From Bacteroidia bacterium (GTDB lineage: Bacteria; Bacteroidota; Bacteroidia; SpSt-205), in NCBI GenBank assembly GCA_026413325.1, contig JANZYW010000015.1, forward strand, positions 1 to 37,166: a stretch of DNA of 37,166 bases. The letters are read 5' to 3'. Shown here one piece after another: positions 1,592 to 37,056 of this stretch. A program made the position numbers and the translations under genes. Every line of letters begins with the position of its first letter. Within the stretch, counting starts at the first letter, position 1. The notes beneath the pieces are model-generated. The model was not told the DNA's origin and searched no databases. It saw nothing but the letters and a program-made list of their open reading frames with translations.

Positions 1592-2354
1592 CTTCTTCCT
1601 CCCGAATCTCCCTGAGCGGATAGACAAGCCGCGAACAAGTGGGCTAACAATGGTGATGGATAAGGGCTTAGGTATCCATGCAGCCACGGATCTCGCTACG
1701 AATGCTGCTCCTTATGTTGATTTTGTGAAGTTAGGATGGTGCACGGCTTATCTTACTCGGAGCTTAGAGGACAAGCTACGGATCTATCGTTCAGCGGGTA
1801 TGGAGCCCTATTTTGGAGGTACCCTATGGGAAGCCTTCTATATAAGAGGGGCTGAGGTGGAGTTTTACCGTCTTCTGGATCGGTACTCGATGCGAGTCGT
1901 AGAGGTCTCTGACGGCAGTGTAGAAGTTCCACACGAGGAGAAGTTGCGTTGGATAGATAGTTTTCGACAGCGGGGGTATACTGTTTTATCAGAGGTGGGG
2001 AGTAAAGATGCGAATAAGGTTCTCCCTCCTTTTCGGTGGATAGAGCTTATCCGAGCTGAGTTAGAGGCGGGTTCGTCATGGGTGATAGCTGAAGCTCGGG
2101 AAAGTGGGACGGTGGGTATGTACCGTTCCACAGGGGAAGTTCGGGAGGGGCTTGTGGAAGAGGTAGTACATGCTATTCCTGTAGAGCGTCTGATATTTGA
2201 GGCTCCTCAAAGGGCTCAGCAAGCATGGTTTATTCGTCGTTTTGGGACGAATGTCAACCTTGGCAATATAGCTCCTGAAGATAGCATCAGTGTGGAAACT
2301 ATGCGTTTAGGCCTTCGGGGAGATACTTTTTGGAGTTTTCTCGAGCGGGGGTGA
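1578..2354 (+). CDS. comA: Phosphosulfolactate synthase family protein (ComA/YitD-like)
   Basis: 258 residues, the usual family length. ComA adds sulfite to phosphoenolpyruvate to give (2R)-phospho-3-sulfolactate, the first step of archaeal coenzyme M synthesis; bacterial homologues feed sulfolactate or other sulfonates. Recognisable family blocks are KPRTSGLTMVMDKGLG (about 17-32), VDFVKLGW (about 48-55), EVSDGSVEVP (about 108-117) and LSEVGSKDA (about 136-144), the TIM-barrel active-site strands. The ATG lies inside the end of the TPR gene, and the stop overlaps the GTG of nuoH, so the three form one coupled unit. No ComB, ComC or sulfopyruvate decarboxylase gene is in view. The product may be a precursor of the sulfonolipids some Bacteroidota make, but that is inference. 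Confidence 0.82.
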   Translation: MSSGNFFLPNLPERIDKPRTSGLTMVMDKGLGIHAATDLATNAAPYVDFVKLGWCTAYLTRSLEDKLRIYRSAGMEPYFGGTLWEAFYIRGAEVEFYRLLDRYSMRVVEVSDGSVEVPHEEKLRWIDSFRQRGYTVLSEVGSKDANKVLPPFRWIELIRAELEAGSSWVIAEARESGTVGMYRSTGEVREGLVEEVVHAIPVERLIFEAPQRAQQAWFIRRFGTNVNLGNIAPEDSISVETMRLGLRGDTFWSFLERG

Positions 2355-3247
2355 GCGGGATCGTAGCAGTGGGATGCCTTTTGATGTATGGACTTCTCGC
2401 TGTGTATGTGGAGAGGAAGTTAGCCGCGTGGATACAGGATCGTCAAGGTCCGATGGAGACTGGTCCATACGGTTTGGCCCAGACATTAGCCGATATTCTC
2501 AAGCTGTTGAGAAAACAAGAAACAATTCCTGCTGCGGCTGTAAAAGGGCTTTTTCTATTTGCCCCGCTTTTGGCGTTAGCATCAGTGGTGGCTTCACTTG
2601 CATGGGTGCCTTTTCTTCGTCCTTCGTCTGGAGGAGAGTATGGTCTGTGGCTGGCTTTGACTGTAGTATCCTTAGAAGCGGTCGCTCTTTTTTTAGGGGG
2701 ATGGGCCAGTGGGAGTAAATATGCCTTTTTAGGCGCTTATCGCTTGCTTGTGCTGGTTCTGGCATATGAACTGGTATTGGGCTTGCTATTGCTGCTGGTC
2801 GTGTCGCACTACGGTACTTTGGATATAGCTGCTATACAAAGCATGCAGCGCCCTTTGTGGGGTATACTTCAGAGTCCTGGAATGTTTTTGGGAGGGCTTC
2901 TATGGGTAGGGGTAGGATTGATGGTCTCCCATCGGGCGCCGTTTGACCTTCCAGAGACTGAGTCGGAGCTGGTGGCAGGTGCGCTTACGGAGTACAGTGG
3001 GTTTCGATTTGCCCTCTTTATGCTTGCAGAGTACATTGTGATGTTATTACAGGCCATCTGGGTTTCCTATATCTTCTTAGGGGGATGGCTATGGGTCGGT
3101 GTGCCTGTCCTTATTCTGGGGCAGATGGTAGTTCGATGGGCTTGGCCGCGTTGGCGGCCTGACCAGGCTCTTCTTCTGGCATGGAAAAGGGGCATACCTT
3201 TAGCTTTCGTGGCATGGGTTTTGGAAATGATATATGTGAAGATGTGA
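2351..3247 (+). CDS. nuoH: NADH-quinone oxidoreductase subunit H
   Basis: Membrane subunit of respiratory complex I that forms much of the quinone chamber. About 298 residues with eight or so hydrophobic segments. Diagnostic blocks are VERKLAAWIQDRQGP soon after the first helix, LADILKLLRKQ, and the conserved loop RAPFDLPETESELVAG followed by YSGFRFALFMLAEY. An upstream TTG at 2330 is in frame, but GTG 2351 is preferred because it makes a four-base GTGA overlap with the comA-like stop and leaves a normal first transmembrane helix. Unusually, no other nuo gene flanks it: upstream is comA-like and downstream a secreted acylase, so complex I genes must be dispersed in this genome. Confidence 0.93.
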   Translation: MSGIVAVGCLLMYGLLAVYVERKLAAWIQDRQGPMETGPYGLAQTLADILKLLRKQETIPAAAVKGLFLFAPLLALASVVASLAWVPFLRPSSGGEYGLWLALTVVSLEAVALFLGGWASGSKYAFLGAYRLLVLVLAYELVLGLLLLLVVSHYGTLDIAAIQSMQRPLWGILQSPGMFLGGLLWVGVGLMVSHRAPFDLPETESELVAGALTEYSGFRFALFMLAEYIVMLLQAIWVSYIFLGGWLWVGVPVLILGQMVVRWAWPRWRPDQALLLAWKRGIPLAFVAWVLEMIYVKM

Positions 3248-3316: not shown

Positions 3317-3349
3317 GGGCGGGCCAGCACCGAAGGCGCTGGCCCGCCC
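3317..3349. repeat. GC-rich palindrome, copy 1 of a dispersed hairpin repeat
   Basis: A 33-base near-perfect palindrome centred on 3333. The outer arms are GGGCGGGCCAGC and GCTGGCCCGCCC around a short ACCGAAGGC centre. It lies between nuoH and the acylase and has no T-tract on either side, so it is not a classic intrinsic terminator. Read on the minus strand it closely matches the palindrome at 36121-36155, with a compensating base-pair change in the stem. On the minus strand the inner position forms a G-U pair, while on the plus strand it is an A-C mismatch, which suggests the minus strand is the structured RNA sense. Confidence 0.7.
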
Positions 3350-3428: not shown

Positions 3429-5558
3429 GTGATACGAAAGATACCGCTTCTTTGCTTGATTCTCTGGCAGACTCAAGCACAGAAAATAGAGATTTACCGA
3501 GACAGTTTCGGAACCCCTTATATCTTCGGAGAAAAGGATGCAGATTGTGCTTATGGATTGGCTTGGGCTCATGCAGAAGATGATTTCGTGCGGATTCAAT
3601 ACCTTGTGGCTCTCGCTAAGGGAAAGCTGGGCAGATTGATTGGGAAGGTAGGGGCAGCTACGGACTATTTTTCGCATTTCACGGGTGCCTTTCAGCTGAG
3701 TGCTCAGCAGTATGACAGTCTCTCTTCAGACGTTCGAGCGGTCTTAGAGGGGTATGCCGCAGGACTAAACGCCTTTGCTGCAAGCCATCCACGAGCGGTC
3801 TTAGACAGGACCCTTTTCCCCGTCAAGGCAGAGGATATTGTGAGGGGATATATTATTGTGTTGTCGAGTATGATAGGAGCGGGCCAGGCATTGCAGAAAA
3901 CCCTGGCTGGCCAGCCTGAAAAATATGAGTTTCAAATCCATGCAGGTTCGAATGCGATGGCCGTGAGCGCGAAGAGAACAGAGGATGGCTGTACCTACCT
4001 CCTAATAAACCCACATGTTCCGATAGAGGGTGTAATGCGGTGGTATGAAGCTTTTCTTCACAGTGAGGAGGGGTGGCACGTTCTTGGAGGTTTTTTCCCC
4101 TGTACGGTTGCACCAGGGCTGGGCACCACCCCCAAGTTGGGATGGGGGGTGACTTTCAATTGGCCTGACTTTGTTGATATTTATCGGCTTCGTATCCATC
4201 CTCGCGATACCCGCCTATATGCTTTGGATGGCAAGTGGGATACACTCCGATCCCGAACTGTGACTTTGGAGGTTCGCCTTATGCGCAACCCTCAGTACAG
4301 TATACAGGGTTGGCCTGTGATGAACCCTCCTCGTCCATGGGGGCCCGTGTTGCGAGTGAAGAAACGGATCGAGACCAGTGTATTTGGGCCTGTTGTTCGC
4401 ACGAAGAAAGGAGTGTATGCGCTCCGATTTCCTGTCGAAAAGCTTTTCCGTGCTCCTCAGCAGTGGTACGAAATGAGCAAGGCGACGACGTTCTCTGCCT
4501 TTCGGAGGGCCCTGGATCTGCAAGGCATACCCCACTTTAATATCGTGTGTGCAGAAAAGCACGACACGCTTTTTTATCTCTTCAATGCTACTTTGCCAGA
4601 GCGCCATCCCGCCTATAACTGGCAGGATGTTCTACCTGGGGACACCTCTGCTACACTTTGGAAGCGATACCTTTCGATAGAGGAGCTGCCCCAGGTGCTC
4701 TCTCCCACCTGCGGTTACGTCTTCAGTGTTAATAATAGCCCGTTTGCTACCACATGTCCGGAAGAGGCTCCGAAGCCAGATGCCTTTCCGAGTCAGCACG
4801 GGTGGCACTGGAATCGTCATAATAACCGGGAGCGTCGCCTATATGAGCTTATGGCTTCCCAAGAGCGGATCTCATGGGAAGAGTTCCATGCTATCAAATA
4901 CGATAGGCAATATCCCAAAGAGGGCCCTGTCAGGTCTCTATGGTTGGCTTTCGCGACACTACCTGATACTGAGCATACTTCTCTCCAAGAAGCTGTACGA
5001 CTGATTCGGGACTGGGATTTTACAGGGTTAGGGGGGAGTCGGGCTGCTACTCTGCTGACCTTAGCAGGTAGTTACGCTCTCAAGAAGATGGGACTACCTG
5101 CTTACAACTGGTTGGAAGAAGGTAAACTGCATCTACCCACTGATCTTTTGTGGGAATCTCTTGCATATGCCACTCGACAGCTTCGACGGTTTTATCACCG
5201 AGTGGATCCGCCCTTAGGAGAGGTCCAAGCTTTAGAAGTCAAAGGCAAAAGGTATCCTTTAGATGGACTCCCTGAGCAGTTGGCGCCTGCCTATGCAGAA
5301 TGGGATATGCGAAAAGGGTTTCTACGGGTCCTGGCTGGGGACACCTATATCCAGTTCGTTCGGTTCTCTCCCGATACTCCGTATCCGTACGTAGAATCGG
5401 TACTGCCATTAGGGATTTCGGGCGACTCCTCCAGCCCACACTATGATGACCAACTTCCGCTATACCTAAGTCGTCGATGCAAGCCTATGACCTTAGACCC
5501 AGGGCAGATACGGTCCCGCTTTACCCGTACGAAAGTGCTACTGCGGAGAGAGAGATAA
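3429..5558 (+). CDS. Secreted penicillin acylase family (Ntn) hydrolase
   Basis: 709 residues. GTG start, then a short signal peptide (IRKIPLLCLILWQTQA, about 2-17). The mature protein has the alpha-chain opening IYRDSFGTPYIFGEKDADCAYGLAWAHAEDD with family-typical spacing. Ser174 in HAGSNAMAVS is the expected N-terminal nucleophile of the beta chain, exposed by self-cleavage after Gly173. INPHVP and VFSVNNSPFA further on match conserved beta-chain blocks. Relatives hydrolyse amide bonds of penicillins, acyl-homoserine lactones, lipopeptides or peptides; the substrate cannot be told here. It has its own promoter and stands alone. Its last 21 bases overlap the convergent alpha/beta hydrolase gene. 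Family call is firm, substrate unknown. Confidence 0.9.
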   Translation: MIRKIPLLCLILWQTQAQKIEIYRDSFGTPYIFGEKDADCAYGLAWAHAEDDFVRIQYLVALAKGKLGRLIGKVGAATDYFSHFTGAFQLSAQQYDSLSSDVRAVLEGYAAGLNAFAASHPRAVLDRTLFPVKAEDIVRGYIIVLSSMIGAGQALQKTLAGQPEKYEFQIHAGSNAMAVSAKRTEDGCTYLLINPHVPIEGVMRWYEAFLHSEEGWHVLGGFFPCTVAPGLGTTPKLGWGVTFNWPDFVDIYRLRIHPRDTRLYALDGKWDTLRSRTVTLEVRLMRNPQYSIQGWPVMNPPRPWGPVLRVKKRIETSVFGPVVRTKKGVYALRFPVEKLFRAPQQWYEMSKATTFSAFRRALDLQGIPHFNIVCAEKHDTLFYLFNATLPERHPAYNWQDVLPGDTSATLWKRYLSIEELPQVLSPTCGYVFSVNNSPFATTCPEEAPKPDAFPSQHGWHWNRHNNRERRLYELMASQERISWEEFHAIKYDRQYPKEGPVRSLWLAFATLPDTEHTSLQEAVRLIRDWDFTGLGGSRAATLLTLAGSYALKKMGLPAYNWLEEGKLHLPTDLLWESLAYATRQLRRFYHRVDPPLGEVQALEVKGKRYPLDGLPEQLAPAYAEWDMRKGFLRVLAGDTYIQFVRFSPDTPYPYVESVLPLGISGDSSSPHYDDQLPLYLSRRCKPMTLDPGQIRSRFTRTKVLLRRER

Positions 5559-35047: not shown

Positions 35048-35096
35048 CAACTTTTCTTTCCCAAAAATCGTATATTTTTTTTCGGAGCGTATGGGA

Positions 35097-35969
35097 ATGC
35101 GACAGCTCAAGATCCAGAAGCAAATTACGAATCGAGAGTCTCAATCGTTAGACAAGTATCTTCAGGAGATTGGGAAGGTCCCCCTTCTTTCCGTGGACGA
35201 AGAAGCGGAGCTTGCTCGGCGGATCCGGCAAGGGGACGAAGAGGCTTTGGAGAAGCTGGTCAAAGCCAATCTTCGTTTCGTGGTATCTGTGGCTAAGCAG
35301 TACCAGAATCAGGGCCTTCCGTTGACAGATCTTATCAGTGAAGGCAATCTCGGTCTCATCAAAGCTGCCAAGCGCTTCGATGAGACCAGAGGGTTCAAGT
35401 TTATTTCGTATGCGGTGTGGTGGATCCGACAAAGTATCCTACAGGCGCTGGCTGAGCAAAGTCGGATTGTACGCCTTCCACTTAATCGAGTGGGAGCCTT
35501 GAACAAAATCAATAAGGTTTTCGCCCGCCTGGAGCAGGAATATGAGCGTGAACCATCTCCCGAGGAGATAGCGGAGGCGATGAAAGGGACCTTATCTCCC
35601 GAAGAGGTTGCCGAGATCATGCGCCAGTCTGGTCGTCATGTATCGCTGGACTCTCCTATCGCTCCTGGCGAGGATACTCGCTTTATAGACGTGCTGGAAA
35701 ACCCCGACCTGCCTCAGCCTGACCAGGTGCTCATGTACGAGAGCCTGCGTCAGGAAATTTCAAAAGCCTTGGCTACTCTTGAAGATAGAGAGGCCCAGAT
35801 TCTTCGCATGCACTTCGGCATAGATCAGCGCTATCCAATGACACTGGAGGAGATCGCCGAGAAGTTAGGCCTTACTCGAGAGCGGGTCAGACAGATCAAA
35901 GAAAAAGCTGTTCGTAAGCTCCGCAGCAATCCTTCTGTTCTGGAGCCCCTCCGCCAATATCTGGGATAG
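35097..35969 (+). CDS. rpoD: Primary sigma factor, Bacteroidota short RpoD
   Basis: 290 residues from the second Met; family members begin MRQLKI, and the ATG at 35091 adds only Met-Gly. Region 1.2 is [27 protein letters not shown], region 2 is [61 protein letters not shown], region 3 includes [18 protein letters not shown], and region 4.2 is [28 protein letters not shown]. It lacks region 1.1 and is much shorter than E. coli RpoD, as is typical for the Bacteroidota housekeeping sigma that recognises TTTG at -33 and TAnnTTTG at -7. The many such elements in this window fit it. Confidence 0.95.
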
Positions 35970-36675
35970 AATTCCTGAAGCCTTGCCTATTTCTTGGGGC
36001 AAGTGAATGAGCGTGGAGAGAGGCGACCTTCCCACCTATCAGCCTGTCACATACATAGTGCCGAGAGGCTGCTCTTCTTGGGTGTATCTGGTTTTTTCGT
36101 GAGAATCTTTGTTGGTTGATGGGGTGGGCCAGCGCCTTCGGCGCTGGCCCACCCCACTCCTATGCTGGCAGTCGAAGTTCATCCAGTTATGGCAGTGGGG
36201 GGCCACTCATCGGTCCCCTCTGCTCCACCTTAGGCAGAAACTCAGTGGGTTCTCTTCTCTCTGTTTCCAGACGATGTCTGATCTGCATTCTTTTTGATGT
36301 CTGGGAAACTACAATACGCACCCTCTGGACCGTAGAGAATGTTCCCTCAAAGCAAGGGGCTTTTTTCCCTTTCCTCTAAGAGTTCTGTGAAAGCTCTCGC
36401 TTGGGCAGCGCCTTTTTCGAAGGGCTGTTATGGTTCACTTCCTTCTCGAAAGTGTTGCGTCTATCTTCCTTCTCCTCTCTGTCAGAAAGGCGATAAGCCT
36501 CTCTCTTGTCTGGAGGAGAGGGAGCTGGGATATCTGGGAAGTAGTTCCTTTCTCTTGCGAATCGGAGGGATAAAGAAGCACCGTAGGCCTCTTATTGGAG
36601 TGTCCTGGGGGTTAGCCTATTTTTTCTGTGGATCCCCGTAAAGACCTTATCAGAAGGGCCATCCAGAGTACGATT
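35970..36675. other. About 700 bases without a supported gene
   Basis: Between rpoD and gcvH, which converge, I see no convincing protein. A 100-codon + strand frame (36339-36641) has no promoter element, no recognisable start context and an unusual Ser/Cys/Leu composition. Contents that stand out are a weak inverted repeat (CTTGCC at 35982 and GGCAAG at 35998) just after rpoD, and the strong palindrome at 36121-36155. The rest shows no repeat or RNA motif that I can name. It could hold a small RNA or a decayed gene. Confidence 0.5.
36121..36155. repeat. GC-rich palindrome, copy 2 of a dispersed hairpin repeat
   Basis: A 35-base palindrome centred on 36138: GGGGTGGGCCAGCGC and, on the far side, GCGCTGGCCCACCCC, around CTTCG. 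All stem pairs match, including an extra outer G-C compared with copy 1. Relative to copy 1 read in reverse complement, the fifth-from-outside pair is T-A instead of C-G on both arms, so the stem is preserved by a double change. No T-tract follows. Confidence 0.72.
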
Positions 36676-37056
36676 TTATCCTACGAGGGTTCGGTAGGCT
36701 TCGGCTCGTAAAAGCGTTTCCAGCTGCTCTGGCTTTTCGATCTCTATGCGGATCATCCATCCTTCTTCGTATGGCGATTCATTTACCTTTTCTGGGTGAC
36801 TTTCCAGAACCGGATTTTTTTCCAAGATGGTACCTGTTACAGGCATGTACAGGTCGGATACCGTCTTAACAGCTTCTATCGTACCGAACACGGTTCCTGC
36901 TTCTACTCTCTGCCCCACGGAGGGGATATCCACATATACGATGTCTCCCAGCTGGGACTGGGCGAAATCCGTTATCCCGACTACTGCTTCCTTCTCGCCG
37001 ATTCGTTTTAGCCATTCATGTTCTCGGGTGTAATAGAGTTCTTCTGGAAACTGCAT
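36676..37056 (-). CDS. gcvH: Glycine cleavage system H protein
   Basis: 126 residues. Lipoyl carrier that shuttles the aminomethyl group between the P, T and L proteins of glycine cleavage. LYYTREHEWLKRI at the start, VGITDFAQSQLGDIVYVDIPSVGQ, and the lipoylation site in GTIEAVKTVSDLYMPVTGTI (Lys in EAVKTVSD) are diagnostic, and NESPYEEGWMIRIEI closes the fold. It has its own -7 element and stands alone; gcvP and gcvT are not in the window. Assignment is firm. Confidence 0.97.
   Translation of the reverse strand: MQFPEELYYTREHEWLKRIGEKEAVVGITDFAQSQLGDIVYVDIPSVGQRVEAGTVFGTIEAVKTVSDLYMPVTGTILEKNPVLESHPEKVNESPYEEGWMIRIEIEKPEQLETLLRAEAYRTLVG

Follow-up and report, generated by a model that had tools for sequence, protein, structure and literature searches.

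REP-like palindromes behind genes in a genus of uncultured Bacteroidia

Two palindromes and their relatives

The stretch of DNA analysed here (the window, 37,166 nt) contains two similar palindromes, which raises the question of whether they belong to a dispersed family whose hairpin structure is maintained and, if so, what the hairpin is for. The two copies and the genes next to them are:

2330..3247, + strand: nuoH-like gene (NADHdh, PF00146), 3' end 69 nt before copy 1
3317..3349, no strand assigned: copy 1, type-A hairpin; arms 3317-3328 and 3338-3349 form 12 perfect pairs, then a mismatch A3329/C3337, two inner C-G pairs and the loop GAA (3332-3334)
3429..5558, + strand: penicillin amidase family gene (PF01804), downstream of copy 1; a coding-score caller starts the gene at 3456
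35091..35969, + strand: RpoD-type sigma factor gene, 3' end 150 nt before copy 2
36120..36156, no strand assigned: copy 2, type-A hairpin; 17 perfect pairs (36120-36136 with 36140-36156) around the loop TTC (36137-36139)
36676..37056, - strand: glycine cleavage H-protein gene gcvH (PF01597), on the far side of copy 2 from the sigma factor gene and convergent with it

In the list of inverted repeats in the window, the two copies come first as a pair (34 nt, 91% complementary). The initial annotation had placed copy 1 as above and copy 2 at 36121-36155, which we extend by one base at either end; the change from C-G to T-A on both arms of the outer stem that it described is present (GGGCGGGCC / GGGTGGGCC). 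It also described the copies as lying in opposite orientation, and this holds for the loop, which reads GAA in one and TTC in the other, but not for the stems, which are palindromic and have no direction. Likewise, both copies do lie beside the end of a + strand gene, with the refinement that copy 1 is between two + strand genes and copy 2 faces the convergent gcvH gene 519 nt away. Copy 2 is perfect and has an RNA minimum free energy of -40.4 kcal/mol; copy 1 is one of the few flawed members of the family, its A3329 opposite C3337 giving A.C on the + strand and G.U on the - strand. Inspection of the sequence agreed that a T-tract is missing 3' of both copies. No terminator-like site was found by the scan near copy 1, and the two weak ones near copy 2 were not in excess over shuffled sequence (2 vs 1.4, sd 1.1). 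A search of the window against Rfam at gathering score gave 0 matches.

Further copies were found in the genome, confirming that the two palindromes belong to a multi-copy, dispersed, REP-like family. A pattern allowing up to 3 mismatches hit 24 places in the genome that contains the window (G000; 2,191,420 bp in 135 contigs), and the reversed pattern, used as a control, hit 5. In 372,916 bp of G000, from contigs named by the pattern searches and hence partly chosen by hits, there were 33 perfect hairpins with a stem of at least 11 pairs and a loop of 3-9 nt, 23 of them with a loop of 3; a single first-order Markov simulation of these stretches gave 0. Twenty-six of the 33 had a stem of at least 12 pairs and a GC content of at least 0.7; the remaining seven were AT-richer and looked ordinary. 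For several of the analyses below we used a set of 61 hairpins from three genomes (G000, G002 and G006), a few of which (L178 5278, L183 14404) may be ordinary hairpins and in which hairpins within one array are not independent. Known hits determined the placement of 13 of the 20 stretches in G002 and 4 of the 20 in G006; stretches placed otherwise contained 3 hairpins in 140 kb and 3 in 320 kb, respectively.

Each unit is a GC-rich palindrome, in most cases with 12-23 perfect pairs that enclose a loop of 3 nt. Type-A units have the inner core CAGCGCC nnn GGCGCTG, with outer stem bases that vary yet remain paired, and other units have cores such as GGCGGCAGCC or GGCGGCGGCC. The hairpins fall into 19 groups in G000 (7 of two units), 17 in G002 (1 of two) and 9 in G006 (3 of two and 3 of three). 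Palindromes of the uptake-sequence (DUS) type are known for over-representation of the single arm by itself; GCCAGCGCC, counted on both strands, lies in palindromes in 17 of 26 occurrences in G000, 10 of 28 in G006 and 26 of 32 in G002.

Several arrangements were noted on the way. In G006, two similar arrays of several hairpins are separated by about 5 kb (L188 8478-8579 and 13251-13351); the second has three perfect units, and the two look like the result of copying a composite unit. In G008 an identical 29-nt hairpin with its flanks recurs at an exact spacing of 701 bp (L222 6525, 7226 and 7927) and looks like part of a tandemly repeated gene unit. In G000, two hairpin arrays flank a nucleotidyltransferase / NTase substrate-binding pair (PF18765, PF08780; L038 10315-10925, contig C65), which we take to be MNT-HEPN-like; the idea of a cassette was rejected as a rule, as the loci of four relatives had no hairpins nearby. 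Several draft contigs break off inside a family hairpin or only a few bases from one, at G003:C8:2-22, G005:C12:2-22, G004:C2:28379-28399 (contig of 28401) and the end of L233. Assemblies thus seem to break at these hairpins, so that copy counts are probably lower bounds.

We found the exact type-A core in 8 of the 11 genomes of the genus, with 1 to 23 copies per genome (8 in G000), and in 0 of 384 other genomes of the class (8/395 overall). With up to 3 mismatches, 9 of 40 genomes were positive, all within the genus. Small stretches of two other members of the family or order, G011 (53,930 bp) and G012 (44,827 bp), had no GC-rich hairpin of this kind. We conclude that the hairpin family is specific to this genus of uncultured Bacteroidia, whose habitat, from the isolate names of relatives, may be hot springs. 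Type-A copies are more alike within than between genomes (0.825 vs 0.717 for 28 copies; in 2000 shuffles of the labels the value was never this high). The core also occurs in 7 IMG/VR viral stretches, with stems of 9-12 pairs amid DNA of 56-72% GC, and these were not accepted as members. No published description of the family was found among titles and abstract openings, a search outside which most subscription journals lie.

Stem pairing and loop type

The proposal that the structure is maintained by compensatory change was tested on 36 type-A copies chosen by their inner seven pairs, leaving out duplicates and copies less than 24 bases from the end of a stretch. All 36 pair at positions 8-11, 35 at positions 12 and 13, 34 at 14, 31 at 15, 25 at 16 and 22 at 17. 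When the left arm of one copy was set against the right arm of another, pairing at positions 8-17 was 84, 100, 55, 94, 38, 68, 72, 56, 51 and 51%. Position 9 is invariant and hence uninformative on covariation, and positions 8-11 formed part of the patterns, with up to 3 mismatches allowed, by which the stretches were found, so that only position 12 outward is free of bias. Position 13 occurs as four pair types. Pairing is therefore kept at positions outside all search patterns, and nearly all further copies keep it too. Among places with a 3-nt loop and GC-rich arms, 51 pair at 14 of 14 positions, 4 at 13 and 3 at 12 (control 0, 0 and 0). Places with 11, 10 and 9 of 14 pairs number 7, 26 and 166, against 2, 10 and 70 in a control whose arms were not matched for GC, and some decayed copies may hide in this excess.

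The loop is also restricted. It has three bases in 55 of the 61 hairpins, and of these 48 read purine-N-A or its complement (null 0.317, p = 1.6e-17) and 29 read GNA or its complement (null 0.166, p = 1e-9), both p values treating related copies as independent. By genome, purine-N-A was seen in 21/22 loops in G000, 15/15 in G006 and 12/18 in G002, where the rule is weaker, and a count by eye gave 5/8 for copies in other relatives. ANA loops probably behave like GNA triloops. In the 28 copies in tandem gaps, the purine loop was on the transcript strand in 14 and on the opposite strand in 10, and was of another type in 4. As there is no clear preference for the transcript strand, the selected form is no less likely to be a DNA hairpin than an RNA hairpin, although RNA, too, may favour purine-N-A triloops, which would count against the DNA reading.

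Position behind genes, turnover and competing explanations

Analyses of gap type and stop distance bear out a position at gene ends. With a caller that penalised hairpin bases, 32 of the 61 hairpins were in tandem gaps, 25 in convergent gaps, 2 in divergent gaps and 2 at edges, and none (0/61) lay inside a called gene; without the penalty, 21 of the 61 fell inside open frames, 17 of these in frames of at most 156 codons. Among gaps of at least 60 bp, a hairpin was present in 19/59 convergent, 23/178 tandem and 2/71 divergent gaps (against divergent gaps, p = 4.8e-6 for convergent and p = 0.018 for tandem). The 32 tandem placements are closer to the upstream stop (median 66 vs 113 nt, p = 0.004). 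From this position it is likely that the hairpins are transcribed. REPs show the same positional bias towards gene ends (available text of PMC3733652).

A potential explanation is that the hairpins are selected as RNA, forming barriers to 3' exonucleases on Rho-terminated transcripts, and that pairing is kept for the sake of a useful RNA hairpin. Their location behind genes and rarity between divergent genes are as this predicts, as are RNA hairpin energies of -24.0 to -58.8 kcal/mol (median -38.0). In the genus, 11/11 genomes encode the Rho RNA-binding domain, and T-tract terminators, as far as detected, are uncommon. With a home-made detector of uncalibrated sensitivity, they were found at 6/55 hairpin-bearing ends and 30/241 others, the latter being 5/86 convergent and 25/155 tandem ends (shuffled 0.04). 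Mutual exclusion of hairpin and terminator, which we considered, is thus not seen overall. By genome, hairpin-bearing ends had a T-tract terminator in 0/23 cases in G000, 1/22 in G002 and 5/10 in G006 (12/67 for other ends in G006); as such terminators are seldom present at these ends in G000 and G002, an end function is possible there. It can be seen from the 3' ends of the adenosylhomocysteinase gene in L235, L237 and L240 that ordinary T-tailed terminators do occur in the genus, though the simple detector finds few.

The turnover of the hairpins between species speaks against selection as RNA barriers. They are missing at the orthologs of both window genes: no hairpin with a stem of at least 9 was found at nuoH loci in 10 relatives (L157 was cut off by the contig end) or at rpoD loci in 6 relatives (4 of the 11 genomes gave no ortholog), and in both cases the neighbours were other genes. 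Nor was there such a hairpin at the amidase locus of nine close relatives, with one unrelated 11-pair hairpin in L072; the sequence upstream of the amidase gene differs in these relatives, so that no empty site was obtained. At two further genes the hairpins are patchy, family members being present behind adenosylhomocysteinase in G002, G006 and G008 among the 10 genomes that have this gene (in G003 the contig breaks off within such a hairpin) and behind a PpiC-type gene in G000 and G006 among 11 genomes (one cut off).

A wider comparison covered 190 ortholog pairs in which the gap downstream could be read. In the 102 that keep their neighbour there is no hairpin (0 of 102); the neighbour has changed in the other 88, of which 18 carry a hairpin at either 3' end, 4 of the 18 in both genomes, as would be expected of useful mRNA ends. 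When gaps of 60-400 bp were considered, a hairpin was present at 0/33 conserved and 27/100 broken junctions (p = 2.7e-4), a test in which one junction could be counted up to four times and which is confounded because broken junctions are more often operon ends. For tandem junctions alone the counts were 19/79 broken vs 0/29 conserved (p = 0.0016), and for convergent junctions alone 8/21 vs 0/4, which is not significant (p = 0.27). On the sequences compared, the turnover fits dispersal or concerted change better than upkeep at fixed sites. Neither a target-site duplication nor an exact empty site is on record, and this we counted against dispersal. A barrier would, moreover, need neither a common core nor outer stems particular to a genome, and the loop type has no clear preference for the transcript strand (14 vs 10). 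Stabilisation of mRNA 3' ends is a possible role of the hairpins, while selection for it as the origin of the family seems to us unlikely.

That the hairpins might be terminators of an unusual kind, as had been suggested for the window copies, is less probable still. They would have to act without a U-tract, and in both directions between convergent genes, and it is in convergent gaps of at least 60 bp that hairpins are most frequent (19/59). In E. coli, inverted repeats of at least 8 bp behind stop codons are mostly parts of intrinsic terminators (available text of PMC6060812). However, T is not enriched past the stem of the 61 hairpins (0.14-0.26 over 12 positions, both strands), and in two relatives the family hairpins behind adenosylhomocysteinase lie beyond an ordinary T-tailed terminator. 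In G006 the terminator is followed by A and B hairpins and then by a terminator-like hairpin on the opposite strand, this last read directly from the sequence and absent from the scan. In G008 a terminator with nine T precedes two hairpins, the first of which is trailed by four T. The excess of T-tract terminators at hairpin-bearing ends in G006 given above (5/10 vs 12/67) also argues against a terminator role.

We would give a similarly small chance to perfect pairing as a product of mutation, in which template switching within a palindrome copies one arm onto the other with no selection for structure. The matching of stem changes while the loop varies, and the small number of places with 12 or 13 of 14 pairs, are what such switching would produce; alone, it leaves unexplained the dispersal of one core through the genome, the restriction to a genus, the loop constraint and the bias towards gene ends. 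It may act jointly with the explanation that we prefer. By analogy with E. coli REPs, which are bound by IHF, DNA polymerase I and gyrase (available text of PMC6006769), the hairpins could be sites for a chromosome-organising or supercoil-handling protein, with an inner core conserved over the genus, arrays of 2-3 units and a position between convergent genes in its favour, but a putative protein site has no need of a long, variable, paired outer stem and we think this very improbable.

On balance, and with modest confidence, we favour a genus-specific, REP-like, non-coding dispersed element that is probably selected or copied as a DNA hairpin, has settled at gene ends and perhaps protects mRNA ends, and is not a terminator. 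We infer both the dispersal mechanism and the function. The selected form would be a folded DNA strand, either a cruciform or a lagging-strand hairpin, because the loop reads purine-N-A on one strand whatever the direction of transcription. Copies may spread through some activity on the DNA hairpin and would persist at 3' ends, where insertion harms least; once transcribed, a very stable RNA hairpin could, as a side effect, shield mRNA ends left by Rho from 3' exonucleases. The scarcity of clearly decayed copies, unusual for a neutral mobile element, speaks against this explanation, as does the negative search for PF01797 as a mobilising enzyme in the 11 genomes. A more specific version, in which an element without a Y1/HUH transposase is spread by some activity for which the purine-N-A triloop and long stem of a single-stranded or cruciform hairpin would be the recognition signal, is speculative and rather doubtful; copying through the hairpin would keep the pairing, so that sequence could drift while structure could not.

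Comparison with known repeats and hairpins

Intrinsic terminators, and the U-less candidates called 'I-shaped' terminators, have a strong hairpin directly behind genes. The family shares this feature, but it is without a T-tract and may be found past a terminator with a T-tail.

REP families are as a rule attributed to a RAYT transposase together with a tag that marks the strand. A RAYT transposase, which the initial annotation had named as a possible partner of the hairpins, did not turn up: PF01797, the Y1 HUH transposase family and the only family searched, was found in 0 of the 11 genomes of the genus, three of which are 81-83% complete, by a search that was positive in 5 of 14 controls. 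REPtrons can be lost, according to the available text of PMC3733652. In 122 flanks of 10 nt, the GTAG tag was found at the foot of the stem 0 times and CTAC 2 times (expected 4.3 and 3.6), and CGTC 0 times and GACG 2 times (expected 2.1 and 2.5). Tag, loop and stem irregularities all mark the strand in those RAYT systems that have been studied (PMC8266576, available text). In the present family only the loop could do so.

The GTAG REPs that accompany RAYT/TnpA_REP are, like the family, short palindromes repeated many times in intergenic DNA, as single units or in clusters, chiefly where the neighbouring genes are unidirectional or convergent, and some are perfect palindromes with 3-nt loops (PMC3733652, PMC6006769 and PMC8266576, as far as their text is available). 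The family differs in that no GTAG tag and no Y1 transposase were found in the genus. Its stems have 12-23 pairs, against 6-13 in the GTAG families of the available text of PMC3733652; basal stems of 7-20 are allowed in that of PMC6006769. CGTC-tagged repeats, which are apparently also without a dedicated transposase and are known from Bacteroidetes too, have stems of 8-9 bp and loops of 4-5 (PMC3733652, same text), whereas the family lacks the CGTC tag.

BIMEs are composite elements (PMC2817692, abstract opening). They have several palindromes adjacent in small arrays, a feature that the family shares. Its units, in contrast, are mostly perfect palindromes of unlike sequence, and no tag was found.

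On broad criteria, REPs are extragenic, usually transcribed, palindromic stem-loops with a short common consensus in several copies (PMC12306157, available text). The family was found to be extragenic and to form a palindromic stem-loop with a short common consensus in several copies per genome. We conclude that it resembles a repeat of the REP type, searches for the usual enzyme and tag having found neither. It has the dispersal, gene-end bias and turnover of REPs, yet has nearly perfect stems and a restricted loop, and this genus with small genomes is a case for asking whether palindromes can spread and stay paired as DNA hairpins, as distinct from acting at the 3' ends of RNA. Should the loop rule hold, it offers a simple handle for finding a loop-reading protein.

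Minihairpins of the type C-(GNA)-G are very stable in DNA (Yoshizawa et al., 1997, as cited in the available text of PMC6479982). The same loop type is the form of 29 of the 55 family copies with a three-base loop; the minihairpin is a structural motif, whereas the present family is a genomic element.
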